Shown: one piece after another, positions 6,992 through 30,674 of the stretch
How the letters are laid out: every line of letters begins with the position of its first letter
Numbering within the stretch: position 1 is the first letter of the stretch
Source: Caldilineaceae bacterium SB0664_bin_27
GTDB lineage: Bacteria; Chloroflexota; Anaerolineae; Caldilineales; Caldilineaceae
Length of the DNA: 64,000 nucleotides
NCBI GenBank assembly: GCA_009838625.1
Contig: VXRG01000034.1
Span: forward strand, 1 to 64,000
Direction: 5' to 3'
Notes under the pieces: model-generated
Seen by the model: the letters and a program-made list of their open reading frames with translations, nothing else
What the model was told of the DNA's origin: nothing
Database searches by the model: none
Translations under genes and position numbers: made by a program

Positions 6992-7064
6992 CAATCTCTC
7001 GCCACTCCCAGTCTGTCGCACTGAATCTCCATCGCGTATATTCAGCCAAAGGAAGAACAGAACA

Positions 7065-8015: not shown

Positions 8016-8984
8016 CTACTCGCCTTCGACTTCAGTTAAGGCCGTCGACCACACCCGTTCAGGTCTCAATACCCCTTTCTCAGTGATATAGGCTGTCACC
8101 AGCTTCCCCGGCGTCTTTTCAAGCGGGGGATAGGTCGTCCCGATTCGATCCCCGTCCAAAAGTTCTGAATGCCCGGCCAGTGGTTCGCAGAAGGTCCGCT
8201 CTGGCTGGGCGTCCCGTCTTTGCCCATGGTCCGCTTTGCTGAGGTCGGTCACGGCGAAAAATGGGACCGCAAAATGTTTGGCGACAACTGCGGTAGTCAG
8301 CGAGCCGACCGTATTTGTGAAGGAACCGTCTCTGAAGAATGTTTCCACGCCGACCAATACGGCATCGCACTTGGGCATGGCGAATGCCAGCGCTGCATCG
8401 GGAACTAGCCATTGCCTGCACGTCAGCTCTTTCCCATGACGAAGGATCGGCAGACCCCCGTCGCACGTCCTGCTCTCCGGCACGACCAACTGCAGATTCC
8501 CGTTCTCCTTTGCCAGGGCGGCTACTACCTTGAACACTGTGCTGCTGTAGTCATACAGAAGCAAGCTGTCGGCCCCTGACAGTTGATTCGCCCCTGCGGC
8601 GGCAATAGCGTCCATTCTGCCTTGCCGGTCAGACGCAAGGCGGCGGCGAAAGTCCCTGAGCGCCAGGGACACCTCCTCTACACTGCGGTCGCTTGTCCGC
8701 ATTTCGTCTAGCTGACTGCGCAAAGCGGCAAAACTGTTGACCACCGCAACGGTGAAACGCCCGCGCGTCTTCAAAAAGTAACTGATCAGATTCAGGGCTT
8801 GACCAGCCAGGTCACCCCCCGACCTGGCCGTGCTTTCAACCGCGAGCATCTCCAGGGCCCGGCCATACATCCCGATAACTGCGCTCGTGCCCAAAGGGCC
8901 CGAACTATCGATGACTTCCATCAGTTGGCGGACTGGTTGGGGGAAGGAGGAGAGCTGCCGGTTGTCGTCGGGTGGCGTTTCCAT
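8016..8984 (-). CDS. eIF2B/IF-2B-like family protein lacking isomerase catalytic residues
   Basis: 322-aa protein of the fold shared by eIF2B alpha/beta/delta, MtnA and archaeal ribose-1,5-bisphosphate isomerase. Recognisable blocks are LLLYDYSSTVFKVV, VVPESRTCDGGLPIL, VPDAALAFAM, AVLVGVETFFRDGSFTNTVG and PFFAVTDLSKAD. The active enzymes use a Cys in a THCNxG-type motif and an Asp in GAD; here these positions read YDYSST and GVE, more like the non-catalytic eIF2B alpha. The gene starts 2 bases after the PfkB kinase stop, with its ribosome binding site (GAGGAAG) inside that gene. Linkage to kinase and SIS genes suggests a role in sugar-phosphate sensing or conversion, but function is open. Confidence 0.7.
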   Translation of the reverse strand: METPPDDNRQLSSFPQPVRQLMEVIDSSGPLGTSAVIGMYGRALEMLAVESTARSGGDLAGQALNLISYFLKTRGRFTVAVVNSFAALRSQLDEMRTSDRSVEEVSLALRDFRRRLASDRQGRMDAIAAAGANQLSGADSLLLYDYSSTVFKVVAALAKENGNLQLVVPESRTCDGGLPILRHGKELTCRQWLVPDAALAFAMPKCDAVLVGVETFFRDGSFTNTVGSLTTAVVAKHFAVPFFAVTDLSKADHGQRRDAQPERTFCEPLAGHSELLDGDRIGTTYPPLEKTPGKLVTAYITEKGVLRPERVWSTALTEVEGE

Positions 8985-8986
8985 TC

Positions 8987-9973
8987 TCAGACTTCCTCAC
9001 ATAGGCGGTCAACATCCGCCTTCTCAAATTCGGCGCCCTGCGAACCATGACCTGTGCAAACGAGCGCGGCCACTGCCGCGCCGATTCTGGCAGCCTCATG
9101 CAGGTCGAGGCCCCGCAGCAAGCCCCAAAGTGTACCCGCAACCACGCCGTCGCCTGCGCCGATGGAATCTACGACGGGCACTTCAATTGCAGAAAGGCAG
9201 TCCAGCCTCCGCCGAGTCGCGCAGATCAGACCTTCACTGCCATTCTTCACGACCACCATCGGCAAGTCCCAAGAGATAAGCGTGCGCGCAGCCTCCTCGA
9301 CGGACGCAGCCCCCGTCACTGCCAGTGCCTCATATCCATTGGCAAACAGAATGTCGGCCTGCGGGACTATCTCTCTGACCCGCTCCGGCTGGTTGTCGCA
9401 GATCGCTCGATTCAAGTCGATCGACAGGGCCGCGCCTGAACTACTGGCCAGTTCGAGCAAGAATTGGGCCGACTGGATTTGGGATTCGAGGTTCAGCGCG
9501 CCCAGGGAGAAGCCGTCGAAATGCACATGGCGGGCGGCCATTCCTGTGACATGGGCGACGTCTGCAGGGTTGAACGCAAGTCCGGCGCGGTCCGAGACGA
9601 AGACACCGTATTCTCCTTGGTCGTCTGCGACAAGCAGAACGTAGGGGGCCGGGCTGACGTACTCGGGCACAAGGAGGGAGCCGTCCACGCCTGAACGCTT
9701 GAGTACACCGGAAACTTCCGGCCAGATGTCTATTGGAATCTTGGAGATGAGGGCAACGTCGGCGCCGAGGCGGGCGGCATGCACGGCGACGTTGAGACCG
9801 TTCCCGCCTACGCTTTGCCAGCGGCCGCGAATTTCGATTTCACGATGGCTGTCGAGCGCCGGCAGCGAATCTACGCCGATAATCTCCTCGGTGCAAGTGA
9901 CGCCAACTACGATCAGGTCGTGCTGACGGGCAGTTCCGTCCCTACCTGCCGTGCCCCATTCGGGGGAACTCAT
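8987..9973 (-). CDS. PfkB-family carbohydrate kinase
   Basis: Ribokinase-like sugar or nucleoside kinase, 328 aa, cytoplasmic. The N-terminal PfkB signature appears as GGNGLNVAVHAARLG and the C-terminal ATP/catalytic signature as DSIGAGDGVVAGTL, where the Asp of GAGD is the catalytic base. An acceptor such as ribose, fructose, 2-keto-3-deoxygluconate, fructosamine or ribose-1-phosphate cannot be told apart by eye. It overlaps the SIS gene by four bases and precedes the eIF2B-like gene by two, so the three are almost certainly co-translated. It lacks a strong Shine-Dalgarno site, consistent with coupling. Confidence 0.88.
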   Translation of the reverse strand: MSSPEWGTAGRDGTARQHDLIVVGVTCTEEIIGVDSLPALDSHREIEIRGRWQSVGGNGLNVAVHAARLGADVALISKIPIDIWPEVSGVLKRSGVDGSLLVPEYVSPAPYVLLVADDQGEYGVFVSDRAGLAFNPADVAHVTGMAARHVHFDGFSLGALNLESQIQSAQFLLELASSSGAALSIDLNRAICDNQPERVREIVPQADILFANGYEALAVTGAASVEEAARTLISWDLPMVVVKNGSEGLICATRRRLDCLSAIEVPVVDSIGAGDGVVAGTLWGLLRGLDLHEAARIGAAVAALVCTGHGSQGAEFEKADVDRLCEEV

Positions 9974-11217
9974 TTTCGAGGAGGGTGAAACTCGATCAAC
10001 TGGCTCTCCTGGATCGTGCGCATGTTCATTTCATACTGGAGCGGAGAGTCAAATTCAAAGGCCAACCGGCCGCGCGATCGGGCCAGACAAGTTGCGAAGA
10101 GCTGGCCCGGGACGCAGTAGACGAGCGGCGACAGCTCCTCTGACACGGACCCAGCGACCGGCAAAGTCACGTCCGCAGCCTCGGAAAGTTCCGGGTTGCT
10201 TTCATCGGTGACGACGACGCCGCACCCACCCATGGTCTGCGTTGTGTGCAGCAACTCTCTGATCCGGCTGACGCTGCGGCCTTGCGGCGCAATGAACAGG
10301 ACCTGTGTGCCGGTTCCTGTGAGGAAAAACTGCTCGTGCGCCCACTCTTCCAACTCCTGGGAGACGCCGTAAACGCGCGGCAGTTCATACGTCTTGGCCG
10401 CGTAAAACAGGCTGGTGGCAAGGCTGGGGCCGGAGCCGAGAAAAGTATAGCTCTCGATCTCCTTCACCTGCTCGGCATAGGCTTCGGCGGCCGGCGTGCA
10501 GATGCGCACGGTCTCGGCGATCAGCTCTGCAGTGGACCGCAGCTCTTCCCGTAAGGCATCGGCCTCACCCTCTGTGATGCGGCCGCGCACGACTCCGGTC
10601 TGGAATGCGATCAGATAGAGCGTGGTCAGGCTGGCCAGGTAGTTGACCAGACCGAACGAGCCGCGGCGTGGTTTGTCCTCCTCTTCGTCAGTAGCCAGGT
10701 TGCTCGGCATTCCGATCAGCTCCCCGTCTAGCCGGACGCTCTGATCCAGGATGGTTTCTGCCTCCTGGGCCAGCCAGCCTTCCGAATTGCCCGTAATCGC
10801 GACAGTGTGGGCCCTGCCCAGGCGGGCGTTGACAAGCGCTTCGACGGAGCGGGCGGCCTTCCCGGAGTTCGAGATTCCGAAGACGGTGGAGCCGGGCGGA
10901 ACGAACCCTGCCGCATAGCGCCCGAACTCGAGTGCTTCCAGCGCTTCGGTGGGAACGCCGGCATAGCGGGCAAAGGCAAAGCGGGCGGCCAGACCGGCAA
11001 AGTAGGAGTCGCCGCAGCCTGTGATGTAGAAGTGGGAGCTCTCCGCCAGGAGGGAGGGATCTAGGGCTTCAAGCTGCGGCTGGACCGAACTGATGACCGC
11101 CGGGATGGCCGGACCCTGGTTGCTGATCTCATTCAGCATGTCTTCGATGGTAACGGGTATCGGTTCGCCGAACTCTGCCTTCCGTATTGGCCGCGCGACT
11201 ATCTCATCTCTTTCCAT
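9970..11217 (-). CDS. SIS-domain sugar isomerase/deglycase-like protein (GlmS C-terminal type)
   Basis: 415-aa protein with two SIS phosphosugar-binding domains and no glutaminase domain. SIS1 contains SSHFYITGCGDSYFAG and the phosphate-binding FGISNSGKAARS. SIS2 contains TFLGSGPSLATSLFYAAK and the conserved Glu/His region ELEEWAHEQF. Stand-alone proteins of this form include AgaS-like aldose-ketose isomerases and FrlB-type fructosamine-6-phosphate deglycases; with a PfkB kinase next door, a FrlD/FrlB-like kinase-deglycase pair is one plausible reading. GAGG lies upstream of the ATG. It is the first gene of a tight three-gene set, 156 bases downstream of the Rieske gene. Confidence 0.82.
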   Translation of the reverse strand: MERDEIVARPIRKAEFGEPIPVTIEDMLNEISNQGPAIPAVISSVQPQLEALDPSLLAESSHFYITGCGDSYFAGLAARFAFARYAGVPTEALEALEFGRYAAGFVPPGSTVFGISNSGKAARSVEALVNARLGRAHTVAITGNSEGWLAQEAETILDQSVRLDGELIGMPSNLATDEEEDKPRRGSFGLVNYLASLTTLYLIAFQTGVVRGRITEGEADALREELRSTAELIAETVRICTPAAEAYAEQVKEIESYTFLGSGPSLATSLFYAAKTYELPRVYGVSQELEEWAHEQFFLTGTGTQVLFIAPQGRSVSRIRELLHTTQTMGGCGVVVTDESNPELSEAADVTLPVAGSVSEELSPLVYCVPGQLFATCLARSRGRLAFEFDSPLQYEMNMRTIQESQLIEFHPPRK

Positions 11218-11373: not shown

Positions 11374-11766
11374 CTACATGACAACGATTACCTGGCCGTC
11401 TTCCACCACGACTTCGTAGGTACGCAGTTTGAGGTCGTAGCCAAAGGCCTTGCCGCTGCGAATGTTGTACTCCATCCCATGCCCCGGGCAGACAAGAACC
11501 TCGCCTTCGTGGGCCCATTGCGTTTCCCAGCACGTATCCGCATTGCAGACTACTGTGCCCTGCAGTCGTCCCCTGCTCAATGGGGCTGACTGGTGTGGAC
11601 AGCGGCCAAAGAGTGCGAAAAACTCTCCGTCTACGTTGAAGACAGCGATCAGCACTCGTCCGACCTTGACCTCCATGCGCGTGCCGGGAGGGAAGTCGCT
11701 GAGAGGCGCAACCGAGATCTTACGTTGAGTACGGGTGCGACTAGAGGACTGCTTTTCGGGAGTCAT
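11374..11766 (-). CDS. Small Rieske [2Fe-2S] protein
   Basis: 130-aa soluble Rieske domain. The cluster ligands are visible as CPH in FGRCPHQSAPLSRG (about residues 55-57) and CPGH in LVCPGHGMEYN (about 92-95). This places it with the ferredoxin/NirD-like stand-alone Rieske proteins that feed electrons to oxygenases or reductases. It overlaps the amidohydrolase stop by four bases. No oxygenase alpha subunit is adjacent; the nearest oxygenases are the PhyH proteins, which do not normally need a Rieske partner. Its partner is therefore unknown. The spacing between the two motifs is longer than in short ferredoxins and includes a third and fourth Cys (VVCNADTCW). Confidence 0.87.
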   Translation of the reverse strand: MTPEKQSSSRTRTQRKISVAPLSDFPPGTRMEVKVGRVLIAVFNVDGEFFALFGRCPHQSAPLSRGRLQGTVVCNADTCWETQWAHEGEVLVCPGHGMEYNIRSGKAFGYDLKLRTYEVVVEDGQVIVVM

Positions 11767-12938
11767 TTTCGCGGCGTCAGCCCGAAGAACTGGAGCGCGT
11801 TCTCGCCCAGGATCTTGCGGCGAAGTGTATCGTCCATCTCATAGCGCATAAAGCCCGCGATCAGGTCCCGTTCCAGGTGCGGCCAGTCTGAGGCCCACAT
11901 CGTCGTGTCCTGGCCCTGGTACAGATCGATCAGCTTGGCCAGATCGCCCCGGCGGGGTAGCGCCTCCAGTTCGTGTGTGCCGATGTACCAGTCCCGGATA
12001 TAGTCGCTGGGCTTCTTCTCCAGCGCCGGTAACTCAGTGCGGTAACGCAAGTATGCAGCGTCAAGCCGGTACATGATGAATGGCATCCACGTCAGCCCTG
12101 CCTCCAGGATTGCGAACTTCAGGTTGGGGAATCGGACAGGGATGCCGGCACATACCACCGACATAATCTGCAGCATCGACGTGAATGGAAAGCCCATGCT
12201 GTTGACCTGCATCAGCGTATGAAAGTGGGCTACTCGCAGGGGATAGTTGTCGTGGATGAGGGCTTCTATGCCGTGGAAGCTGATGGAAAGGTCGTGCCTG
12301 GCCGCCGCTTCGAATATCGGCCAGTACTTCTCGTCGCCGATTGGCGGGTTGACTCCGACGTCAGGGATGCAGACGCTTACGACGTCCGGGTGACTTGCAT
12401 GGCGGTCGATCTCCTGTGCAGCTCGCGCCGGATGCTGGGGCGCGACCACGATGGCAATCTTGACGCCGCCCAAGCCATTGTAGGCGTCGACCATGTACTG
12501 GTTGTAGGCTGTGGCGAGGGCGGCCGCCCATTCCGGTTCCGGCAGATAGCCGATTGGCAGAAGCTCGCTAGGGAAGAGAATGCTGTAGTCAATGATTCCC
12601 TTCTCCATCCTCGCGAGAAGGTCTTCCTTGGTGGCCAGCTTGGCGCGCGGCGGCTTGTCATAGGAGGAGCCGAGCCAGGCGATGTGGGCGATCATGTTAC
12701 GTAGCGAGTTGCCGGGCTCACCTTTGAAGTCGGCCTGGAGCACTGTCTCCATTCGCTTGCGGAAGTGGCCGTCCATGTAGTCGAGCATGAACATCAACGT
12801 GTCGTCAACGTGCACGTCAACGTCGACTATTGTCAGCCCTGACAGCTCTTCGCCGTACTGGTCGAGATCTTCGTCCTGCACGGGATTGAAGGAGGGCTCG
12901 ACCTTTTCGACGGTAACGGATTGCCCATCGGCTGCCAT
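11763..12938 (-). CDS. Amidohydrolase family 2 (ACMSD-like) metal-dependent hydrolase/decarboxylase
   Basis: 391-aa TIM-barrel metallo-enzyme of the amidohydrolase-2 superfamily. I choose ATG 12938 because AGGAGA lies 8 bases upstream, whereas the longer frame upstream is unconserved. The N-terminal strand reads IVDVDVHVDDTL, giving one His where many members have HxH. Further likely ligands are the His in DLSISFHGIEAL and the Asp in MWASDWPHLERDL. Such enzymes hydrolyse or decarboxylate small carboxylated or aromatic compounds. Overlap with the Rieske gene and linkage to DppBC permeases suggest catabolism of an imported compound. Confidence 0.83.
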   Translation of the reverse strand: MAADGQSVTVEKVEPSFNPVQDEDLDQYGEELSGLTIVDVDVHVDDTLMFMLDYMDGHFRKRMETVLQADFKGEPGNSLRNMIAHIAWLGSSYDKPPRAKLATKEDLLARMEKGIIDYSILFPSELLPIGYLPEPEWAAALATAYNQYMVDAYNGLGGVKIAIVVAPQHPARAAQEIDRHASHPDVVSVCIPDVGVNPPIGDEKYWPIFEAAARHDLSISFHGIEALIHDNYPLRVAHFHTLMQVNSMGFPFTSMLQIMSVVCAGIPVRFPNLKFAILEAGLTWMPFIMYRLDAAYLRYRTELPALEKKPSDYIRDWYIGTHELEALPRRGDLAKLIDLYQGQDTTMWASDWPHLERDLIAGFMRYEMDDTLRRKILGENALQFFGLTPRK

Positions 12939-13054
12939 CGTGGAATCTCCTGTCGGGCTCGTTTCGAGAGGCGGAACACGCTCGCAAAAAGCGAGCCCTG
13001 CGAAAGCGGTATTGGGTCTCTGGAGTGTAGCAGACCAGAGCGAGCGCATACAAA

Positions 13055-13957
13055 TCAGGTGGCTGATTGGCCGTTGCGGGCCCCCTTGGCAGCGCGTGGG
13101 TTCATCACGTCGATCAGGCCGTCGCCCACCAGGTTGACGCTCAGCACAAGCAGGGTCAGGACGAGTCCGGGAAAGCCAGGATACCAGGGGGCGACAGTGA
13201 TGTAGCCGCGGCCGTCGCTTATGATTGAGCCCAGGCTCGGGGTCGGCGGCTGAATGCCGAAGCCAAAGAAGCTCAGCCCTGCTTCATACATGATGGCGCC
13301 GGGGATGCCCATCGAGAAGGCGACGATTATCGGCCCCAGGCAATTGGGAAGTACGTGTCGAAGCAGAATACGCCAGTTGCCTGCGCCAATGCTGCGCGCC
13401 GCCTCCACGTAAGTCTGGTCTCTGATCGCCAGAACTTGTCCCCTCACCAGCCGGGCCACGTCAGGCCAGGCCACCAGCGCCAGCGCCAGGCAGACCGTCA
13501 ACAGACCGGGCCCGAGCACCGCCGTCACCGTCATCGCCAGCAGAATGACGGGGAAGGCGAGCATGATGTCGGTGATGCGCATGATGATGTCATCAACGCT
13601 CTTTGGGAAATAACCCGAAATCAGGCCGAGCATGGTGCCTGCCACCATCGACAGGCCTCGTACGAGGATGCCGACTATCAACGACGTGCGCAGACCGAAT
13701 ACTACCCGGGCAAAGATGTCCCTCCCCAGCTGGTCGGTGCCAAACAGGTTCTGGGAATTTGGGGCAAACGGCGGCCTGATCGTCTCGCCGTCCTGCTCCC
13801 GGCGCATTTCGATTTCGGTGGGGTCGCTGACGATAAAGGGCGCGAACGCTGCTAGCAGTACGAAGACCAGGATCACGCCCACGCCGACCAGCGGCAGGCG
13901 GGCTTGCAGAAAGCGCCGCCAGTCAAACGTAGCGGATTCGCGGATTGATAAACGCAT
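13055..13957 (-). CDS. ABC transporter permease, DppC type
   Basis: 300-aa inner-membrane subunit of a peptide/nickel-type importer. It has the first helix near residues 20-40 and the family motif LFGTDQLGRDIFARVVFG. Five more helices follow, with the coupling loop TYVEAARSIGAGNWRILLRHVLP. The gene starts inside the upstream dppB-like gene (35-base overlap). No OppD/OppF ATPase is encoded anywhere in this leftward cluster, so the pair must share ATPases from elsewhere. The presumed receptor is the binding protein at 20318-21961, separated by an ECF module. Confidence 0.9.
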   Translation of the reverse strand: MRLSIRESATFDWRRFLQARLPLVGVGVILVFVLLAAFAPFIVSDPTEIEMRREQDGETIRPPFAPNSQNLFGTDQLGRDIFARVVFGLRTSLIVGILVRGLSMVAGTMLGLISGYFPKSVDDIIMRITDIMLAFPVILLAMTVTAVLGPGLLTVCLALALVAWPDVARLVRGQVLAIRDQTYVEAARSIGAGNWRILLRHVLPNCLGPIIVAFSMGIPGAIMYEAGLSFFGFGIQPPTPSLGSIISDGRGYITVAPWYPGFPGLVLTLLVLSVNLVGDGLIDVMNPRAAKGARNGQSAT

Positions 13958-14849
13958 ACAGGAGGTCCACTGCCAGGTTGACCAGGGATACGGAGACAGC
14001 CAGTACGATTACTGAGGCCTGCAAGGCTGGGAGATCGCGAAAGACCAGCGCGTCATAGGCGTACTTGCCTATGCCGGGCCAGGCGAAGATCACTTCGATT
14101 ATCGGGATACCCCCAAGCAACCTGACAAAATCTGTGCCGATGGTCGTGACGATTGGAATCAACGCATTCGGAAGAACATGCCGTCTGACGACCAGCACAC
14201 CCTTTAGCCCCTTGGCGCGCGCGGTGCGTATGTAGTCCTCACCCAGGACCTCAAGCAGGGCGGCGCGGGTGATTCTGGCCAAAAGGCCTAGCGACGGCAA
14301 CGCCAAGGTGACCGCCGGCAATATGACAAACTGGTCGAATCCTGCCCCATAGCCGGAGGGTGGTAGCAGCCGCAGAAAAACTGCGAAAACGATCTGCAGC
14401 ATGAGGGCCAGCCAGAAAAGCGGAAAGGAAAGATTCAATGCCGCTATCGTCATGATCAGACGGTCTGCCCAGCCGTTGCGGCGCGTGGCCGCGACGATTC
14501 CTAGCCAGACACCGATGAGCGCGCTCGTAACTTCGGCGGCAATGGCCAGCTGCACGGTTTTGGGGAAAACTTCCAGGAGATCCTTCAGTATGGGGCGGCG
14601 GGACTGGTAGGAGCGTCCGAACTCGCCTCGCGCCAGGTTCCACAGATTGTCCACGTACTGGACCCAGAGCGGGCGGTCGAATCCCATCTCCTCCCGAATC
14701 GTTTCAACGACGTCGGGGTTGGCGAAAGGACCGGCCATCATGCGGGCGGGATCCCCGGGCAGGATGTTCAACAGCGCGAACAATACGGTGACCAGCCCGA
14801 TGAGAATGGGGATGAATTGTAGGATGCGTCGAACTGTGTAACCGAGCAT
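13923..14849 (-). CDS. ABC transporter permease, DppB type
   Basis: 308-aa permease with the standard DppB N-terminus (MLGYTVRRILQFIPILIGL), a periplasmic loop with FGRSYQSRRPILKDL, and the coupling loop TRAALLEVLGEDYIRTARAK. The length is normal for the family. It lies 105 bases downstream of a PhyH gene and overlaps the dppC-like gene. No clear Shine-Dalgarno sequence is visible before the ATG. It pairs with the 13055-13957 permease as a heterodimeric channel. Confidence 0.9.
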   Translation of the reverse strand: MLGYTVRRILQFIPILIGLVTVLFALLNILPGDPARMMAGPFANPDVVETIREEMGFDRPLWVQYVDNLWNLARGEFGRSYQSRRPILKDLLEVFPKTVQLAIAAEVTSALIGVWLGIVAATRRNGWADRLIMTIAALNLSFPLFWLALMLQIVFAVFLRLLPPSGYGAGFDQFVILPAVTLALPSLGLLARITRAALLEVLGEDYIRTARAKGLKGVLVVRRHVLPNALIPIVTTIGTDFVRLLGGIPIIEVIFAWPGIGKYAYDALVFRDLPALQASVIVLAVSVSLVNLAVDLLYAFINPRIRYV

Positions 14850-14954: not shown

Positions 14955-16097
14955 TCAGAGCCCAAGATCTTGCAAGTTGTAGTTCTTGAGTAAGCTCTCC
15001 CTCGTCGCGTCGCTCCAGCGGTTGGCCTCTTCCTCGCCGGCCAGTGGCTGGTAGACATAGCGGCTCTCGTGCGGGAAACGCTGCTGGCGGGCGTCGATTG
15101 CAAGCGCGATCACCCTTGAGCGTTCGCGTACCCGTTCTTCATCGTAAACGACCTCCTGTCCTGCGTGTACCGTGCGGACATTGAGAACGGAGCGGCGGCG
15201 GTGAAAACCGAAATTGATCGTGATTCTCCTGTCCGGCGAGGTATTCGCGAAGGAGGCGTGCAGGGCCTGCCTGTTGGACATACAGACGTCGCCTGGCTCA
15301 CAGACCATCGGCACCGCGCCTGGTAGACGGTCGGAGCCGTTCTCCTCAACCATGGACTTGATGTCCAATTTGCCCAGTTTGTGCGAACCGGGAAGCAGCC
15401 AGACACCGTTCTCGGCCGTACTCCCATAAAGTTGCGCCATGAAGTTGAAGCCATGTGTGCCCTCGTCCAGGTCGGGGCTGTCCCAGTGGGTTGTGCCGTC
15501 GTGGTGCCAGGCGACGGAAGGTCCAAGCCCGGCGCGTTTCACGATGACCGACTCTGTAAAAGGGGTAAAGTCTGGCCCGTTGATGCTTTCAGCGATTGCC
15601 AGCAGCTGCGGGTGACCGTAGAGTCTCAGGCAAGAGTCCATGAGCTGGAGCGGACTGCCGATGCTGGAAACTACGAATTCAGGGGCGTCGGCAGGCGGGG
15701 TTGGCTCGCTCATCTTGGCTTCGTAGCGGCCGCCTGTGGCATTGGTTCCCCCATAGGGGTCGCTCAATGGCTTCGCGAAACGGAATGATGGCCGCTCGAA
15801 CTCAGAGCCGATGGCCGGCCTGCCCTGTGCGTCGACTGTTGCGTCCTTCGTAAAGGGAGCCCGCTCCAGGGCGTTTTCCATATCCGCCCGCAAGTCGCTA
15901 AGTTCCTCCGCGCCCAGAGCGCCCTCCAACACATAGAATCCGCAACGCCAGAATGCATCGATGATCGCCTGGTCGAGAGTGCCGTCGTCGTTGAATCGAA
16001 TCGGCCCTCGGTTGCCCAACTCGTAGGCCTGGCGTTTTCCCTCGCGGACATACGCTTCCAGGCTGCTTGAATCCTCTACTTTGGTTTCTGTGCTCAT
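14955..16097 (-). CDS. Phytanoyl-CoA dioxygenase family (PhyH) oxygenase
   Basis: 380-aa Fe(II)/2-oxoglutarate oxygenase. ATG 16097 is chosen since GAGGGA sits about 9 bases upstream and the protein before it is unconserved. The metal motif is HHD in VAWHHDGTTHWD, and the distal His and 2-oxoglutarate Arg are in RQALHASFANTSPDRRITIN. It is about 90 residues longer than the 7065-7946 paralogue, with an extra N-terminal region. It stands between the ECF transporter and the DppBC permeases, so it likely acts on a compound taken up by one of them; substrate unknown. Confidence 0.87.
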   Translation of the reverse strand: MSTETKVEDSSSLEAYVREGKRQAYELGNRGPIRFNDDGTLDQAIIDAFWRCGFYVLEGALGAEELSDLRADMENALERAPFTKDATVDAQGRPAIGSEFERPSFRFAKPLSDPYGGTNATGGRYEAKMSEPTPPADAPEFVVSSIGSPLQLMDSCLRLYGHPQLLAIAESINGPDFTPFTESVIVKRAGLGPSVAWHHDGTTHWDSPDLDEGTHGFNFMAQLYGSTAENGVWLLPGSHKLGKLDIKSMVEENGSDRLPGAVPMVCEPGDVCMSNRQALHASFANTSPDRRITINFGFHRRRSVLNVRTVHAGQEVVYDEERVRERSRVIALAIDARQQRFPHESRYVYQPLAGEEEANRWSDATRESLLKNYNLQDLGL

Positions 16098-16179
16098 CGT
16101 GAGATTCCCTCTCTTGAAGAAGCTGCTTAAGCCCAACTCTTTCGGAGCGGCAGCACTCCCATAGTTTGCAGAAAAAAGG

Positions 16180-16191
16180 AGAACGCGTTCT
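16180..16191. promoter_or_regulatory. 12-bp perfect palindrome upstream of the PhyH gene
   Basis: AGAACGCGTTCT reads the same on both strands and lies 83 bases upstream of the PhyH start, in the 280-base gap after the ECF T-component gene. It may be an operator, but a 12-bp palindrome could also be chance. Confidence 0.25.
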
Positions 16192-16377
16192 GTTCTATGT
16201 AACTGCTGAAATGAAGGCTTGGTAATGCTTCTCGAATTTGCTGTTTTCCCTGGATCAATGGAACCACACCATATTCTACTGTCTGGCCCATCCAAATGGA
16301 AGGATGGATTTCAGTCTTTGCACTTCTTGCGCTGGCGGACCACCGGACATTCGTCAATGGAATTGCCTGACTTGCAA

Positions 16378-17262
16378 CTAGATGTTTCGCTGAGGAGTAT
16401 AGGGCAGCACACCAAGGCCGTAGCTGTTGGCCAGAATGAGGCACCCAATAGCAATGATAATCAGCAACGCGCAAACCCCCCAGTCCGCCCTTCGCCAGTG
16501 GACTTCATGAATGAATGTCCGTTCAGTGGGAGCGCCGAACGCCCGCGTCTCCAGAGCAAGTGTCAAATCGTGCGCACTCAACAGGGAGCTTGTCAATACC
16601 GGTACAAACAGGGTCATCACCACTCTTATCTGGCGAATGGGATTGTAGCCGCCGAAGTTAACGCCGCGCGACCGTTGTGCGTCCAGGGTCTGATCAAACT
16701 CCCGGCTGACGGTGGGAATGTACCGAAAGGCTGTTGTAAACACGAAGATAACGTTGTAAGGAATCCTCCAGGATCCTATGCGTATCTGTGACAGAAATCT
16801 GGTGAGGTCGCTGGGGTGAGTCGTCAGTACCAGAATAGGGAAGGCGAGCGAGATCGCGACGACTCGCAGTCCCAACGAGAACCCGTAGTTCGCTCCCTCG
16901 AGGATGACCGGAATCCGAGGCCCGCCCGGAGCCCAGGCGGGCCACAGATGAAAGAGCGTCCGCCACTCGAACTCCACGTCAATGTCCCCAAAATCGCCAA
17001 AACTGGTGAACCAGACGCCCTGGGTGATCACCATGAACAGCACAATGTATGCGAGCACCCACATGTACCGGAACTTCCTGACAGGGATCTTTGCCAGCGA
17101 GGCCACGCCAATGATCGCCAGGATAACAACAGCAAGGAACAGAGGTTCGTTGAAGGCCGCTGCAATCACAAGGACGGCTATTTCAAAGAGGACTTTAGTG
17201 AATGGGTGCAAGCGATGTACAAAGGAATCTTCTTTGAAGTACTGAATGTCAATTGTCGGCAT
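16378..17262 (-). CDS. ECF transporter transmembrane (T) component, EcfT/CbiQ family
   Basis: 294-aa integral membrane scaffold of an energy-coupling-factor vitamin/metal importer. The N-terminus has HRLHPFTKVLFEI, matching the family's HRLDPRTKL-type start. The two ATPase-coupling motifs are present as AQRSRGVNFGG (about residues 192-202) and LETRAFGAP (about 237-245). Its start follows AGGAA and lies 34 bases after the second ATPase gene. With the two ATPases and the S component further upstream it forms a complete dedicated ECF system. Confidence 0.9.
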   Translation of the reverse strand: MPTIDIQYFKEDSFVHRLHPFTKVLFEIAVLVIAAAFNEPLFLAVVILAIIGVASLAKIPVRKFRYMWVLAYIVLFMVITQGVWFTSFGDFGDIDVEFEWRTLFHLWPAWAPGGPRIPVILEGANYGFSLGLRVVAISLAFPILVLTTHPSDLTRFLSQIRIGSWRIPYNVIFVFTTAFRYIPTVSREFDQTLDAQRSRGVNFGGYNPIRQIRVVMTLFVPVLTSSLLSAHDLTLALETRAFGAPTERTFIHEVHWRRADWGVCALLIIIAIGCLILANSYGLGVLPYTPQRNI

Positions 17263-17296
17263 GTCTGATTCCTGCCAATACAGTCGACTCTTGCGT

Positions 17297-18157
17297 CTAA
17301 CTTCTGATAGCTGTTAGCAGATTCTCAACAAGCTCTGTTTGCGTCAAGGGCGTGTCTGAAAAACCGTAAGCCCGCAACCCGCGGGCGATTTTCGCCACCG
17401 GAGGTAAATCCAGACCGGTGGACTTCAGAACCTCGTCCTGCTTGAAAACCTCGTTGGGGGAGGCGTCACATACGGCAGCCCCATCCTTCATGACAATAAC
17501 CCTTGTCGCATATTCGGCTACTAAGGCCATGTCGTGGGTGACCATAAGCACGGTTCGCCCGTCGGCATGCAGTTCCACGGCCAACGCCATGATCTGACGC
17601 CTGGAGAGGAAGTCCTGCCCGGTCGTGGGCTCATCAAGCACCAGGACGGGCGTTCTCAAAGCGAGGATCGAGGCCGTGGCCAACCTCTGGCGCTGGCCTC
17701 TGCTGAGCGCCCTTGGGTGACGGTCGCGTAGTTCATCCAGTGAAACTGCCTGGAGAGCTTCGGTCGTCTGTTGTTCGACCGTTTCTGCATCCAATTTGTG
17801 TAGCTTGAGTCCAAAGGACGCTTCTTCCCATACGGAATAGGCAAATATCTGATGGTCCGGATTTTGAAAGACAAAGCCGACGATGCGAGACAGCTCCGAT
17901 ACCCTCGTGGTGCGAGTGTCCAGGCCGTCAACCATAACGTGACCTTGTGATGGTTTCAGTAAGCCATTGAAATGTTTGACGAGCGTAGTCTTCCCCGAGC
18001 CGTTCGAGCCGATGATCGCTACGAACTCCCCTTGCCGGATCTCCAAATTCACACTGCTCAGCGCAGAGATTCCTCCGGGATACGAATAACTGAGGTCACG
18101 AGTTTCGATAATGGCTTCGCTTGCCAATTGGCCCTCCAAGTCAAAGAAGCTCGCCAA
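17297..18157 (-). CDS. ECF transporter ATP-binding protein (second A component)
   Basis: 286-aa ATPase of the ECF module. Walker A GSNGSGKTT lies near residues 49-57 and the Q-loop FVFQNPDHQIFAYSVWEE is typical of EcfA. Walker B reads VLVLDEPTTGQD. The ABC signature is LSRGQRQR rather than LSGGQ, a known ECF-type variation that also suggests this subunit is asymmetric with its partner. The N-terminus overlaps the first ATPase gene by 17 bases. A C-terminal EcfA domain with the DLPPVAKIARGLRAYG segment is present. Substrate depends on the S component at 19417-20199. Confidence 0.92.
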   Translation of the reverse strand: MASFFDLEGQLASEAIIETRDLSYSYPGGISALSSVNLEIRQGEFVAIIGSNGSGKTTLVKHFNGLLKPSQGHVMVDGLDTRTTRVSELSRIVGFVFQNPDHQIFAYSVWEEASFGLKLHKLDAETVEQQTTEALQAVSLDELRDRHPRALSRGQRQRLATASILALRTPVLVLDEPTTGQDFLSRRQIMALAVELHADGRTVLMVTHDMALVAEYATRVIVMKDGAAVCDASPNEVFKQDEVLKSTGLDLPPVAKIARGLRAYGFSDTPLTQTELVENLLTAIRS

Positions 18158-18989
18158 ATGCCTGGATACCTTCTTCCGCGGTCAAGGGCCAGGAATCGAA
18201 TGTATAGCCATACTTGCTGAGCTCAAAAGCCACTTCTGCCGCAGTAGGCGCCACCAGTCCCAACTGGTGGAGCTCCTCGGTCTGGGAAAAGACCTGGCGA
18301 GGCTTTCCCTGCATCGCAATCTGGCCTTCGTGCATTACCAGGATGGAGTCGGCCAAATGGGCCACGGCATCGATCTTGTGTTCAGCGATCAAGATTGTCT
18401 TCCCATGCTCAGAGTTTAGGGCCCGGATCAACTCGAGGACACGCCGGCTGCTCTGCGGATCTAGATTAGAGGTAGGCTCATCCAGGATCAAGATTTCGGG
18501 AAGCATCGCCCAAATTGCGCCGATGGCTACGGACTGCTGCTGGCCTCCGGAGAGATAGGCAGGTTCGCGTTCCAGGAGTTCCTCTATACCAATCGTCGTG
18601 GCCGCGAGTTGTATCCGGCGAAGAATTTCCGACTTTGCCAGGCCCAGGTTTTCCGGCCCAAAGGCGAGTTCCTCCCTCACTGTATGGGCAAACAACTGCA
18701 CATCCGGACTCTGGAAGACGAATCCAACCTTTTGCGCCAACTCAGAAATCGACTGGTCTCTCGTGGCAGTTCCGTCGATGTCTACCCTTCCGCCCACGCG
18801 CCCAGGGACGAGATGCGGAATCAAGCCGTTTAGGCACATGTACAGCGTGCTCTTGCCGGCCCCCGTCGCGCCGATGAGCAGTGCGATCTCACCTTGCTCA
18901 AAGGTCAGATTGATGTCACGCAGCGCGGGCTCTTTCGTGCCTGAATAGGAGAAGGTCAGGTCTTCTACAACTACAACTGGCTCACTCAC
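18141..18989 (-). CDS. ECF transporter ATP-binding protein (first A component)
   Basis: 282-aa ATPase with Walker A GATGAGKST at residues 40-48, the Q-loop VFQSPDVQLFAHTVREEL, the canonical signature LSGGQQQ and Walker B ILILDEPTSNLDP. It starts at GTG 18989; no convincing Shine-Dalgarno sequence precedes it, so the exact start is uncertain. Its C-terminus carries the EcfA segment LGLVAPTAAEVAFELSKYG. It is separated from the S-component gene by 427 bases, an unusually long gap for this operon. Confidence 0.91.
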   Translation of the reverse strand: MSEPVVVVEDLTFSYSGTKEPALRDINLTFEQGEIALLIGATGAGKSTLYMCLNGLIPHLVPGRVGGRVDIDGTATRDQSISELAQKVGFVFQSPDVQLFAHTVREELAFGPENLGLAKSEILRRIQLAATTIGIEELLEREPAYLSGGQQQSVAIGAIWAMLPEILILDEPTSNLDPQSSRRVLELIRALNSEHGKTILIAEHKIDAVAHLADSILVMHEGQIAMQGKPRQVFSQTEELHQLGLVAPTAAEVAFELSKYGYTFDSWPLTAEEGIQAFGELL

Positions 18990-19416
18990 GTGGATTCAGG
19001 GGGACAGTCAGAATGAAAGGCAAACTCATCACTCTCTCCTACTCTATCGTCCAGGACTCACCATAGGTTTCTTCGGGACATGGTGCGGAGGCGGCAGCCC
19101 AGCCCAAAGGCGGATGATTGAGATCTGTAACAAGTGATGGTGAGCGGACTCATGCATGGGTCTGACACGCTTGACCTCTCTCACTGAGTACTGCGCCCGC
19201 TCGGCAACATTGCGTGGACCTGACGATGACTGCTCGGTCTTGCCCACGCAACGTGCTAGAGCACTGCCGAATGACCCTGCCTCTTGCGCTTTTTCAGACT
19301 TCGGTCGTTCCTGATGCGATCTTTGGGGGAACTTGCATTTCGCCTGAGGGTAGCGAAACCTGTGACTCTGCCCTTGCCAAGCCATCCTGCGCCTGCGGAA
19401 AAAGGTTTGCCGAATC
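18990..19416. other. 427-base gap between ECF S-component and ATPase genes
   Basis: No frame on either strand resembles a known protein. The leftward frame 19044-19466 is rich in Arg/Lys/His and overlaps the S-component gene. I looked for thiamine, cobalamin and similar riboswitch boxes and recognised none. The gap may hold a leader or separate promoter for the A-A'-T genes, or decayed sequence. Confidence 0.4.
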
Positions 19417-20199
19417 CTATTCTTCTTCCTCGTTCGCTGCCAGGATCGATCCTGAGACGGCAGCAAACCTTATGCCGGCACGATGTAACCCGATAATCAC
19501 AGCGGCCCCAATTACGATTGAGATGACTGTCAACAGGATACGCTGGGCGGGCACGATCCCCGACCAGAAAGCAAATACCCACTGATCGGGGCCTTCAGGA
19601 AACAGGTATGACCAACCCAGACTCAGGTAGACGTGGTTGATCATGTATGCAGTCCATGAAATAATCGCCACCCCGATTGAAGTAGGAACCGGTTGCAATT
19701 CGCGAATTTTGCTGACTGCCCAAGGTGAAAACCAGAGCCCTACCAGACCCGTGAGATACATTGGCCAGTAGGCGAATTCCGCGTAAACATAGGAGCCTAT
19801 GGCCGAGAACATGGGCAGCACCGGCCAGGCAATCACGGCGATCAGATAGATTACGAGTGTCGCGATGCGAGACTTGCGCGTATTCACCATCAGCAGTCCT
19901 GCTGCCAGCGCGCCGATGGTATGGGGATAGAAGGTGGCAAATCCGAAGTATGCGGTGGCAGGACCGATGAAACTTGCGAGCAGTCCGCCAATCGTAGCAG
20001 CGATCGCGCCGGCAATCGGGCCGAACAGAATCCCTGCCAGGGTCAGGATAAACTCCTGACCGCCAAAAGTGCCCCCGCCGACCAGGGGAATCGCGGGAAG
20101 TATTGAGGCAACCGCATAAATGGCTGCCCAGACTGCGAGGTACGCGACTGGAATGCCGGCGATCGCCCCTCGCCGGCCGCCCGAAATCTGTGTCGTCAT
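19417..20199 (-). CDS. Probable ECF transporter substrate-binding (S) component
   Basis: 260-aa membrane protein with about six hydrophobic segments. I choose ATG 20199 because AAAGGAGG lies 7 bases upstream. The stretch LTLAGILFGPIAGAIAATIG matches the Gly/Ala-rich third-helix region common to S components such as BioY, ThiT and HmpT-like proteins. The protein ends in an acidic tail (ANEEEE). The residues that set vitamin specificity are not recognisable, so the substrate (vitamin, precursor or metal) is unassigned. It lies between a family-5 binding lipoprotein and the ECF ATPases on the same strand. Confidence 0.75.
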   Translation of the reverse strand: MTTQISGGRRGAIAGIPVAYLAVWAAIYAVASILPAIPLVGGGTFGGQEFILTLAGILFGPIAGAIAATIGGLLASFIGPATAYFGFATFYPHTIGALAAGLLMVNTRKSRIATLVIYLIAVIAWPVLPMFSAIGSYVYAEFAYWPMYLTGLVGLWFSPWAVSKIRELQPVPTSIGVAIISWTAYMINHVYLSLGWSYLFPEGPDQWVFAFWSGIVPAQRILLTVISIVIGAAVIIGLHRAGIRFAAVSGSILAANEEEE

Positions 20200-20217
20200 G
20201 TCTGCCTCCTTTGCAAG

Positions 20218-20260
20218 ATGCATGTCACCTGTCAGATATTTCAGGACAGGTGACATGCAT
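20218..20260 (-). promoter_or_regulatory. Perfect 16-bp inverted repeat between binding-protein and S-component genes
   Basis: ATGCATGTCACCTGTC at 20218-20233 and its exact reverse complement at 20245-20260, with an 11-base loop. It lies 57 bases after the binding-protein stop and just upstream of the S-component ribosome binding site. No T run follows on the leftward strand, so an RNA-stabilising or attenuating hairpin is likelier than a simple terminator. Its position mirrors the hairpin at 2670-2692. Confidence 0.8.
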
Positions 20261-20317: not shown

Positions 20318-21961
20318 CTACTCCGTTACCCAGACACGGTGAAACATATGGGTATCCATCGGCGACGGTACGTAGTTCTGCACGCGAGGCGTCGATACGT
20401 CCACATAGATGTTGTGCGTCAACGGAATGTAAGGCAGGTCTTCGGCGAATTGGGCGTCCACCTCTTGGTAGAGACGGGCGCGTTCGGCGTCGTCGATAGT
20501 GGCGCGGGCGGTGGCGATGTTGGCATCCACGTCTGCGTTGGCGTAGCGGGCGTAGTTGCCGCCTGCGCCCAGATTGTCGGAGTGCATCAGGGGATAGTAG
20601 AAGCCGTCCGGGTCGGCGTAGTCGGTGACTCGGTACATCCAGGCGAGATCGTAGCTGCCCGATTCAAGCGCTTCCATGTAGGGCCCGAACTCTGTCGGTT
20701 TGATCTCGATGTTGATGCCGATCTCTTTCAGGTTGGCCTGGTAAATTTCCAGCAGCTTGATCAGGTTGCCCCAAGGCGGAAGAATGACGTCAAAAGTGCC
20801 GGGAACACCGTCTGCAAAGCCGGCCTCCGCCATAAGGGCCTTGGCTGAATCGAGGTTGGTTGGGTAATTCAGCATCGCGTCCTCATTGTAGCCAAGCAGT
20901 CCGGGAGGAAGCAGGCCCTGGGCGACATTGGCTCGCCCTTGCAAGCTGGCGATGATGGCATCCAGATCGAGTGCGTAGCGGACCGCCTGCCGCAACTTGG
21001 CATTGGTTCCGAACGGTTCGTTGTCAAGGTTGACGACGATAAAATCGGTATGGAATGTCTCTGCCCAGCCCAGCTTCTCCTTGTAGACCGGGTCCGTGCT
21101 GAACCGCTCCCAGTGCGCCGGGGGAACCCAGGCCATATCCAGTCGCCCGGCATCCAGCTCTACGATGCGCGTGTTTTCGTCACCTATGAAGCGGAACATG
21201 ACCGCATCCAGGTAGGGGCGTCCGTTCCAGTAATCTTCGAAGGCGTTGAGTGTTACGTCCTGGTTGAGATTCCACTCGCCCAGGGAGAACGGCCCGGCCG
21301 CGACGACATTCTGGCCGAAATCTTCACCCCACTTCTCGACCTCTTCCTGCGGCACGACGGCCAGGTTGATGCTGGCCAGCATAGCCTTGAAGGGGGCCAG
21401 CGGTTCGGCAAGTTCGATCTCCAGGGTCCCGGCATCGACGACTCTGATGCCGCTGACTTCATCGGCGGACCCATCCTGGAAAGCCTCGGCGCCGACAATT
21501 ATTGAGAGCATCCAGGCCTTGGGGCTCCTGGTCTCCGGATTCAGGACACGTTCAAAGCTGTACTTGAAGTCGTAAGCTGTGATTTCCCGGCCGTTGTGGA
21601 ACTTCGCGCCTGATCGCAGATTGAAAGTCCAAGTCTTGCCGTCTTCGGACACTTCAAAACTCTCGGCGATGGCCGGTTCTATCTCACGACCATCCGGTGA
21701 AAGGCGGAAAAGACCTTCAAGCAGATTGGGGGCTATAACCCCTTGATCCCAGCCGGCGATGGCAGCCGGATCAAAGCTCTTTGGATCGGATGAGACAAAG
21801 CCGGCCACGACGCCGCCCATTTTCGGTCCTTCTGCCATGCTCGAATCAGCGGCCATCGTGTCGGCGGCCGGGGCCACCGGCGCGGCAACACAGGCGATCA
21901 TGAGCGATGCCAGTAGTGCAAGACAAAAAACCAGCTTCAACACATGCTTCGATGACTTCAT
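20318..21961 (-). CDS. ABC transporter substrate-binding lipoprotein, SBP family 5
   Basis: 547-aa receptor of the DppA/OppA/NikA family. ATG 21961 follows AGGAGA. The signal peptide ends with a lipobox-like SLMIAC (Cys near residue 23), then an Ala/Pro/Met linker, then the family-5 domain with AESFEVSEDGKTWTFNLRSG and HNGREITAYDFKYSFERVL. It is 550 aa long, a normal size. It has its own promoter at 22078-22106. Its natural partners would be the DppB/DppC permeases at 13055-14849, which are separated from it by the ECF genes and a PhyH gene; no other family-5 permease is closer. Confidence 0.9.
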   Translation of the reverse strand: MKSSKHVLKLVFCLALLASLMIACVAAPVAPAADTMAADSSMAEGPKMGGVVAGFVSSDPKSFDPAAIAGWDQGVIAPNLLEGLFRLSPDGREIEPAIAESFEVSEDGKTWTFNLRSGAKFHNGREITAYDFKYSFERVLNPETRSPKAWMLSIIVGAEAFQDGSADEVSGIRVVDAGTLEIELAEPLAPFKAMLASINLAVVPQEEVEKWGEDFGQNVVAAGPFSLGEWNLNQDVTLNAFEDYWNGRPYLDAVMFRFIGDENTRIVELDAGRLDMAWVPPAHWERFSTDPVYKEKLGWAETFHTDFIVVNLDNEPFGTNAKLRQAVRYALDLDAIIASLQGRANVAQGLLPPGLLGYNEDAMLNYPTNLDSAKALMAEAGFADGVPGTFDVILPPWGNLIKLLEIYQANLKEIGINIEIKPTEFGPYMEALESGSYDLAWMYRVTDYADPDGFYYPLMHSDNLGAGGNYARYANADVDANIATARATIDDAERARLYQEVDAQFAEDLPYIPLTHNIYVDVSTPRVQNYVPSPMDTHMFHRVWVTE

Positions 21962-22077
21962 GTCATTCTCCTGAAATAGTGTGGATTCTGAGGGAATCTG
22001 AAGGAAGTAAAGGAATTGGCCTGGAAACTGTTGAGAGGCTTGGACGGTTGTCCCGGTCCGGCTCCCATGCTGCGCCA

Positions 22078-22106
22078 AAGTTAACAAATCGAAATTCCGT
22101 TGTCAA
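22078..22106 (-). promoter_or_regulatory. Promoter of the family-5 binding-protein gene
   Basis: On the minus strand TTGACA (22106-22101), 17 bases, TAACTT (22083-22078). The -35 overlaps the stop codon of the upstream kinase gene. The leader to the ATG is about 110 bases. This separates the transporter genes transcriptionally from the kinase and PhyH genes. Confidence 0.65.
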
Positions 22107-23161
22107 GCGTTCGAATCCTGCCGAGCAAGGCGCATCTGCAGTTGCTGCAGCCTTGAATGCGCCTGAGCTGCGTCAACTCTCAGGGCGTGAAGCACGCCAA
22201 AGTCCTTAATGATGAATGAAGCCGAGACCGCGCCATAAAGGGCGGCCTGCCGGGCGTCTCCAGTCTGGGCCATCCCGACCAGAAAGCCGCCGCAGAAGGC
22301 ATCGCCGGCCCCGGTCGGATCGACCGCCGCCGTCGGGAAAGTCGGGATCTGAGTCCAGTTCTTCTCTCCTTGCAGCAGCAGGCGCAATCCGCGTGCCCCC
22401 ATTTTGACTCCGATCCCGCGGGGTCCCAGCGCGAGCAGGCGCTGCGCCGCCTCGAAGACGTGTCCACGATCCGCCTCACTCTCACTTGCGGCACAGTTGG
22501 CGGCATCGGCGTGGATGGTCAGTTCCTCAATGCTTGGCAGGAGATAGTCGATATTTCTGAGCAGGGCGAGGTCAACCTCGGCTTCCTGGTCCCAGTCCCA
22601 CCAGGGCCAGTCGAAGGTAATGACGACCTGGTCGCCTCGCAGCTCTTTGAGAAAGGTGGCGTTGGCGCGGCTGCAAGGAAGCGGCCCCGGGGCCAGATGG
22701 ACGAAGGATGCCTCTTCGGCCAGGTCCGCGAACTGAGTGAGGTCAGGGCAGAAGCTCGGCCAGATGCGGCGGTGGAGGGGGCTGCCTGTGTCGGTGTACT
22801 CGCTTTCCAGGTCGATGATTTCGCCGGCATGGGCAGGCAGGATCGAGCGCGCCTCTTCGATGCGGTCGGTGCGGCTGCCGTCGGCAAAGTAGAATGCGCG
22901 CGAGCGCAGCAGGTGAGGATCGGGGATCTCGACCACGCCCGAGACGTTGATGCCTGCGCCGGCCAGCTGGTCCAGCCACTGGGAGGGATAGTCGCAGCCG
23001 ACGACGCTGACCAGGCTGACGTCTACACCCCAGAGGCGCATGCCTGCGGCCGCATAGACGGCATTGCCGCCAAGCTGACGCGGTGAAATCTGTCCGTCGG
23101 GGGTGACTACGTCGTCTAGAGTGCAATTGCCTACCGCAAGGAAAGGGCTGGCTGCACTCAC
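22103..23161 (-). CDS. PfkB-family carbohydrate kinase
   Basis: 352-aa ribokinase-like enzyme starting at GTG 23161, with GAGAGGAA about 9 bases upstream. The N-terminal signature is LGGNAVYAAAGMRLWG and the ATP/catalytic motif is DPTGAGDAFCGGFLVG near residue 285. It is about 25 residues longer than its paralogue at 8987-9973 and only moderately similar by eye. Family substrates include ribose, adenosine, fructose and related sugars. It lies 102 bases downstream of a PhyH gene and 141 bases upstream of the binding protein. Confidence 0.87.
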   Translation of the reverse strand: MSAASPFLAVGNCTLDDVVTPDGQISPRQLGGNAVYAAAGMRLWGVDVSLVSVVGCDYPSQWLDQLAGAGINVSGVVEIPDPHLLRSRAFYFADGSRTDRIEEARSILPAHAGEIIDLESEYTDTGSPLHRRIWPSFCPDLTQFADLAEEASFVHLAPGPLPCSRANATFLKELRGDQVVITFDWPWWDWDQEAEVDLALLRNIDYLLPSIEELTIHADAANCAASESEADRGHVFEAAQRLLALGPRGIGVKMGARGLRLLLQGEKNWTQIPTFPTAAVDPTGAGDAFCGGFLVGMAQTGDARQAALYGAVSASFIIKDFGVLHALRVDAAQAHSRLQQLQMRLARQDSNA

Positions 23162-24061: not shown

Positions 24062-24085
24062 CTGAAGGTTCTCCTGTTTCTGGAT

Positions 24086-24105
24086 GTCTGCCGACATCGG
24101 CAGAC
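24086..24105. promoter_or_regulatory. 20-bp palindrome upstream of the PhyH gene
   Basis: GTCTGCCGA, a 2-base centre (CA) and TCGGCAGAC form a perfect 9-bp-arm dyad 25 bases upstream of the PhyH ATG, just before its ribosome binding site. The 2-base loop favours a DNA operator over an RNA hairpin. Confidence 0.55.
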
Positions 24106-30571: not shown

Positions 30572-30674
30572 TCTCAGCCTCCGCTTGCCGCGACGAACAG
30601 TGAGCAGCGTCAACCGTTAAAGAAGCTCGCGGTCAGCTCAGGAATCCTGGTTTCGCCAGCCCCATAACTTACGC

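Follow-up and report, generated by a model that had tools for sequence, protein, structure and literature searches.

In a stretch of 64,000 nucleotides from Caldilineaceae bacterium SB0664_bin_27 (contig VXRG01000034.1, positions 1 to 64,000; hereafter the window), three adjacent genes encode a double-SIS protein, a PfkB-family kinase that we call PfkB_B, and an eIF2B-like protein. Our main finding is that the eIF2B-like protein belongs to a bacterial clade, designated the DYSST clade, in which invariant acidic residues occupy the positions of the catalytic Cys and Asp of ribose-1,5-bisphosphate (R15P) isomerase and MtnA. Judging from sequence, the protein probably binds a sugar phosphate arising from nucleoside-type breakdown, either as a new enzyme or as a sensor. 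The initial annotation had proposed a 'sensor or new enzyme' in a sugar-phosphate pathway, which is a fair reading: the canonical catalytic pair is absent, the genes recur together, and their context is one of sugar-phosphate catabolism. The three genes are the following.

9970..11217, minus strand: double-SIS protein, 415 amino acids (Pfam SIS PF01380, 5.5e-18, over cut-off)
8987..9973, minus strand: PfkB-family kinase PfkB_B, 328 amino acids (Pfam PF00294, 3.8e-37, 128.7 bits, over cut-off)
8016..8984, minus strand: eIF2B-like protein of the DYSST clade, 322 amino acids (Pfam IF-2B PF01008, 4.9e-28, 98.6 bits against a cut-off of 22.4)

As first annotated, all three genes lie on the minus strand, the SIS and PfkB_B genes sharing a 4-base ATGA overlap and the PfkB_B and eIF2B-like genes being separated by a 2-base gap. 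None of the three corresponds to a named NCBIfam enzyme, the best scores being far below equivalog cut-offs. The eIF2B-like protein is placed in PF01008 both by its profile score, which is over the gathering cut-off, and by its fold: an AlphaFold2 model has the expected architecture, with Z scores of 20-25 to MtnA, R15P isomerase and eIF2B subunit structures. Within this range, R15P isomerase and MtnA structures give 23-25.

To locate the active site, we used as references the PH0208 sequence from the PDB and an archaeal R15P isomerase from genome G449; the ligand-contact residues of PH0208 were taken from PMC5789824. Four elements of the eIF2B-like protein are central to what follows.

8538..8552, minus strand: D145-Y-S-S-T149, in which D145 stands at the catalytic Cys position of R15P isomerase and MtnA
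8343..8345, minus strand: E214, at the catalytic Asp position (E198 in human eIF2B-alpha, PMC8187479)
8310..8315, minus strand: N224, a kept sugar contact, and T225, at the position of a lost 1-phosphate/sugar Lys of R15P isomerase
8235..8237, minus strand: K250, a kept 5-phosphate-binding Lys (K240 in PH0208, K234 in eIF2B-alpha)

Cys135 of PH0208 aligns with D145 (the D of YDYSST) and Asp204 with E214 (the E of GVE), and the motifs that had been read at these two positions are thereby confirmed. Displacement of the catalytic residues, which the initial annotation had named as a possible refutation, is ruled out: the alignments put Cys at D145 and Asp at E214 without nearby gaps, and nowhere in the pocket is there a displaced Cys. 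The cysteines that the protein does have (174, 189, 206 and 266) lie elsewhere and are not common to distant clade members.

The surrounding pocket departs from that of R15P isomerase (PH0208, Tk-R15Pi; TIGR00511) in a selective manner. The two proteins have in common their fold, their length and the absence of the MtnA loop, and contacts to the 5-phosphate (S137 and K240 of PH0208, here S147 and K250) and to the sugar (N214, here N224) are kept. In contrast, the 1-phosphate contacts R22, R65, Q166 and K215 read L31, R74, G176 and T225, so that one of the four (R65) is retained; the K215 position is Thr in all clade members, the residues of the adenosine monophosphate (AMP) site are lost, and the protein scores 54 bits on TIGR00511, where the cut-off is 314. 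Read in this way, the pocket would be much like the fructose-6-phosphate pocket of human eIF2B-alpha, the subunit that also supplied the first-pass PDB sequence matches. Human eIF2B-alpha contacts fructose 6-phosphate via G196, A129, Y130, E198, N208, R132 and K234 (PMC8187479), the counterparts of which are G212, D145, Y146, E214, N224, S148 and K250; the human numbering was carried over by way of PMC5789824 and does not come from an alignment with the human sequence itself, and for 129/130 the mapping is based on the Ala that stands at the Cys135 position in human eIF2B-alpha (PMC5789824). The window protein thus has the Glu, Asn, Lys and Tyr of the human set (E214, N224, K250 and Y146) without a catalytic Cys, and it shares with eIF2B-alpha of human and S. 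pombe the Glu at the Asp position, the aromatic residue after the Cys position and the missing 1-phosphate contacts. It differs from them in having Asp (D145) rather than Ala/Gly at the Cys position and Ser148 in place of the phosphate contact R132, and in being encoded by a stand-alone bacterial gene within a catabolic cluster.

MtnA has the same PF01008 fold, but the eIF2B-like protein has neither its Cys/Asp pair nor its GALAT-type insertion and falls outside the MtnA clade. The genome encodes an MtnA of its own, and these two are its only PF01008 proteins. We conclude that the eIF2B-like protein is a PF01008 member outside R15P isomerase and MtnA, in a setting like theirs; a PfkB kinase next door to the eIF2B-like gene is comparable with the arrangement in the archaeal R15P isomerase pathways.

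Five clade members were identified: that of the window, those of congeners G311 (66% identity) and G315 (60%), one in G977, from another family of the class (32%), and one in G035, from the same phylum (24%). They form one group in a tree of 26 proteins (support 100/98), apart from MtnA, R15P isomerase and the other bacterial eIF2B-like proteins; the latter make up two or more groups with Ser at the Cys position, the Asp being kept in all but one seen. Down to 24% identity, D145-Y146-S147-S148-T149, G-x-E214, N224, T225 and K250 are invariant in all five members, and invariant columns account for 10 of the 14 R15P isomerase ligand-contact columns, compared with 39 of 322 overall (hypergeometric P about 1.6e-7). 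The ratio of non-synonymous to synonymous change (pN/pS) of the eIF2B-like gene within the genus is 0.35-0.46, an approximate value as synonymous sites are near saturation, and the gene evolves faster than that for SIS. Invariant acids at both positions in a clade under purifying selection indicate that the site was remodelled, not decayed, and the description 'apparently non-catalytic' given at the outset is not supported.

In wider searches, no clade member was found at E 1e-27 among 398 genomes of another phylum, in a search without positive control. When the window and G035 proteins were compared with plasmids by tblastn, all matches were MtnA/eIF2B-like and below 36% identity, and a scan of genome contigs gave distant matches alone, mostly MtnA-like where their motifs were read. 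Among other eIF2B-like genes, two in tandem with non-Cys motifs (one with GAE) lie between BtpA and Dpp transporter genes at L187:6131-8096, and a BtpA gene is also found 3' of an SIS gene in L174. Another bacterial group (THSxSSTV...GADS) has a conserved position adjoining a MoCF_biosynth (CinA-like) gene (L185, L188, L189 and L190).

Within the genus, the SIS gene is present in 16 of 17 genomes, the window's included, whereas PfkB_B and the eIF2B-like gene are intact, at full length, in three (the window, G311 and G315); the order SIS-PfkB_B-eIF2B-like recurs in the two congeners. Broken 5' parts of PfkB_B directly follow SIS in G306, G309 and G316, and in G318 a remnant (L058:9390-9710) joins the N-terminal part of a PfkB-like sequence directly to the C-terminal part of an eIF2B-like one, as an internal deletion would leave it. 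The pair or its remains are therefore found in 7 of 17 genomes, which argues for ancestral presence followed by repeated loss. PfkB_B and the eIF2B-like gene are an optional, often lost accessory pair in the genus, and the trio as an obligate unit is ruled out, SIS alone being kept in most congeners. The conservation of the trio, proposed at the outset as a check, thus holds for gene order in two congeners and fails in most of the genus. In L106 (G307), the interval between SIS and PhyH1 has about 2.4 kb with an opposite-strand open frame of roughly 700 codons, where congeners have PfkB/eIF2B or nothing.

Both partner proteins retain their functional motifs. In PfkB_B, the PfkB kinase motifs are intact (GAGD at 272-275, GGNGLN at 56), and the score to the ribose-1-phosphate kinase equivalog (NF053626) is 82.2 bits against a cut-off of 330. 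In the SIS protein, K275, E278 and H294 are the equivalents of GlmS K485, E488 and H504, and they are invariant in 13 of 13 aligned SIS proteins; GlmS K503 is replaced by Ala and T302 by Asp. Relatives at 34-42% identity keep the same three GlmS residues, and most share the signature EEWAH(E/L)QYF. FrlD/FrlB, which had been cited as a precedent, also pair a PfkB kinase with a double-SIS enzyme, but the SIS protein scores far below the FrlB fructoselysine-6-phosphate deglycase equivalog (NF008481; 16.8 bits against a cut-off of 430) and likewise falls far short of the cut-off on GlmS models, and its relatives reside in nucleoside, not fructosamine, clusters.

Outside the genus, a PfkB gene was present in the same stretch as SIS in 14 of 23 inspected loci (3-17 kb each), and in two it was fused to SIS (PfkB_A-SIS fusions L171:1584-3749, 721 amino acids, and L176:1458-3257, at least 600 amino acids). 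The kinases adjoining or fused to SIS in relatives are mostly of a second type, PfkB_A, encoded in the window 11 kb upstream of the trio. The initial annotation had overlooked this usual kinase partner of the SIS protein. In at least one of the genomes G328, G302, G015 and G176, SIS is accompanied by nucleoside hydrolases, adenine deaminase, ADP-ribosylglycohydrolase, RpiA or a transaldolase/phosphoglucose isomerase (PGI) fusion. In G977 the clade member itself adjoins an SIS gene, in a cluster that holds Amidohydro_2, uridine phosphorylase (TIGR01718, over cut-off), PfkB_A, a Q_salvage protein and two SIS genes of the window type; the Q_salvage-family protein (PF10343, L184:7463-8572) suggests modified nucleosides. 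The G035 member lies near an allantoinase-like gene, an isochorismatase-type hydrolase and a sugar/nucleoside-type ATP-binding cassette (ABC) importer, the importer type being assigned from translation. What these loci would have in common is the freeing of a sugar from nucleosides or from N-glycosides related to them. A limited open-access literature search retrieved, by title or abstract, no published account of an operon module combining SIS, PfkB and nucleoside hydrolase.

In the window, the trio does not stand alone but closes a longer same-strand cluster at its 3' end, and the cluster may form a single transcript. The genes upstream of SIS are as follows.

11374..11766, minus strand: Rieske ferredoxin-like protein (PF00355), at a position conserved in the genus
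11763..13049, minus strand: Amidohydro_2 protein (PF04909), 82-97% identical within the genus
13055..14849, minus strand: Dpp-type ABC permeases DppC2 (13055-13957) and DppB2 (13923-14849), from open reading frame translations, conserved in the genus
14955..16295, minus strand: PhyH-family dioxygenase (PF05721), conserved in the genus
16378..20256, minus strand: energy-coupling factor (ECF) importer (CbiQ, ABC_tran and ECF-ribofla_trS matches), made up of the next four genes
16378-17262, minus strand: EcfT
17297-18157, minus strand: first ATPase (ABC_tran)
18141-18989, minus strand: second ATPase, assigned from translation
19417-20256, minus strand: S component
20318..22087, minus strand: oligopeptide-type solute-binding protein (SBP_bac_5)
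22103..23161, minus strand: PfkB-family kinase PfkB_A, the type adjoining or fused to the SIS family in relatives

The order on this strand is PfkB_A, solute-binding protein, ECF importer (S, two ATPases, T), PhyH, DppB, DppC, amidohydrolase, Rieske, SIS, PfkB_B and eIF2B-like. The DppB-DppC-amidohydrolase-Rieske-SIS order was found in 15 of 15 loci inspected in congeners; PhyH lies upstream in the majority of those long enough to include it, and PfkB_A was present in 8 of the 8 genus loci that extend to its position. The initial annotation missed both the optional nature of the PfkB_B-eIF2B pair and the place of the SIS family in nucleoside-type catabolic clusters.

The reading that we favour, with a probability of roughly 0.45, is that the eIF2B-like protein is an aldose-ketose (or glycosylamine-ketosamine) isomerase of sugar monophosphates, using D145 and E214 in a PfkB-SIS module for nucleoside or N-glycoside catabolism. 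It starts from what is observed, namely the gene order, the clade, the pattern of pocket residues, the intact SIS and PfkB motifs, the context and the repeated loss; the monophosphate ligand, the catalysis, the order of steps and the substrate class are what we infer. PfkB_B (and PfkB_A) would phosphorylate an imported sugar or nucleoside. The eIF2B-like protein would hold a sugar 5- or 6-phosphate in the former isomerase pocket and convert a sugar phosphate between its aldose and ketose (or its glycosylamine and ketosamine) forms, with D145 and E214 in the role of the Cys/Asp acid-base pair, while the SIS protein, with its GlmS-type Lys/Glu/His, may perform a neighbouring isomerisation or a deamination/deglycation step. 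At the 1-phosphate end, an Asp would make a 1-phosphate unfavourable and would suit a group that is neutral or basic. An isomerase is favoured because of the chemistry of the family, this Asp, and the acid pairs that do such chemistry elsewhere: TrpF has Cys/Asp where HisA has Asp/Asp, the shared Asp alone being confirmed from a paper, and RpiA has Asp/Glu. More tentatively, the clade as a whole may be a class of its own among PF01008 isomerases and new to the family, with an Asp/Glu pair at work, a sugar monophosphate substrate, a role in a PfkB-SIS nucleoside/N-glycoside route and a ligand site near that of the eIF2B-alpha sensor; such a class would model how an isomerase can become a sensor.

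Several observations weigh against an isomerase. The substitutions C135S and D204N inactivate R15P isomerase (PMC5789824), and E214, N224, Y146 and K250 fit the non-catalytic pocket of eIF2B-alpha equally well (PMC8187479). In most genomes of the genus SIS has been retained while PfkB_B and the eIF2B-like gene have gone, so that their step is non-essential to the SIS pathway, and neither SIS nor PfkB was detected within the 13 kb around the G035 member. As no nucleoside-cleaving gene was recognised among the scanned genes of the window cluster, the nucleoside link is, for the window, extended from relatives. The AlphaFold2 model was built from an alignment of distant MtnA-like proteins and has a mean predicted local distance difference test (pLDDT) score of 68, low at 253-286. 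Finally, we know of no activity for a PF01008 protein with Asp/Glu at the catalytic positions.

A sensor or regulatory subunit, which would bind a sugar phosphate made by the kinases without turnover and regulate PfkB_B or SIS via conformational change or complex formation, is possible but the more doubtful of the two roles. The match of G212, Y146, E214, N224 and K250 to human G196, Y130, E198, N208 and K234 (PMC8187479), the eIF2B-alpha first-pass matches and the dispensability of the pair in most relatives all suit it; it accounts less well for an invariant Asp where eIF2B-alpha has Ala/Gly, for the replacement of R132 by Ser148, for neighbours that are catabolic enzymes, and for a genome whose PF01008 complement includes no partner like eIF2B beta/delta. 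We consider it improbable that the pair is a decaying or selfish genus-specific remnant of no important function. Intact copies in 3 of 17 genomes, broken or deleted ones in four more, and faster evolution than SIS are what such a remnant would present, but the surviving copies are full length with constrained pN/pS, and the invariant pocket is common to other families. Least probable of all is an ordinary R15P isomerase or MtnA that carries out the same reaction, in a pentose bisphosphate pathway, with substituted residues. The fold is the same, PfkB_B scores weakly to ribose-1-phosphate kinase models, and a PfkB-family kinase with a PF01008 protein is the Thermococcales/haloarchaeal pair, serving nucleoside ribose in the haloarchaeal non-carboxylating pentose bisphosphate pathway (PMC9700705); the window protein, unlike these, has no R15P-type catalytic residues, its module includes an SIS enzyme, its 1-phosphate contacts are lost, and a separate MtnA is present. 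A pathway with Rubisco is ruled out by the absence of PF00016 from the genome (96.7% complete), and the suggested analogy with the conversion of R15P to ribulose bisphosphate fails on the same absence and on the 1-phosphate contacts.

The enzyme and sensor readings predict opposite outcomes in simple assays. The route by which a sugar-phosphate isomerase gave rise to the regulatory subunits of eIF2B has yet to be explained; eIF2B-alpha continues to bind sugar phosphates in the ancestral active site. A bacterial clade with eIF2B-alpha-like Glu/Asn/Lys/Tyr and an Asp at the Cys position, adjoining its likely kinase, is a small testable system in which to ask if a site of this kind serves catalysis or sensing. 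The clade also directs attention to an uncharacterised PfkB-SIS catabolic module that has natural fusions and a link to nucleosides.

Two further features of the window were recorded. Three PhyH-family dioxygenases lie within 17 kb (6870-7946, 14955-16295 and 23264-24097), each adjoining transporter genes, and positions 28310-30613 encode a 767-amino-acid protein with laminin-G and N,N-dimethylformamidase-beta-like C-terminal domains.

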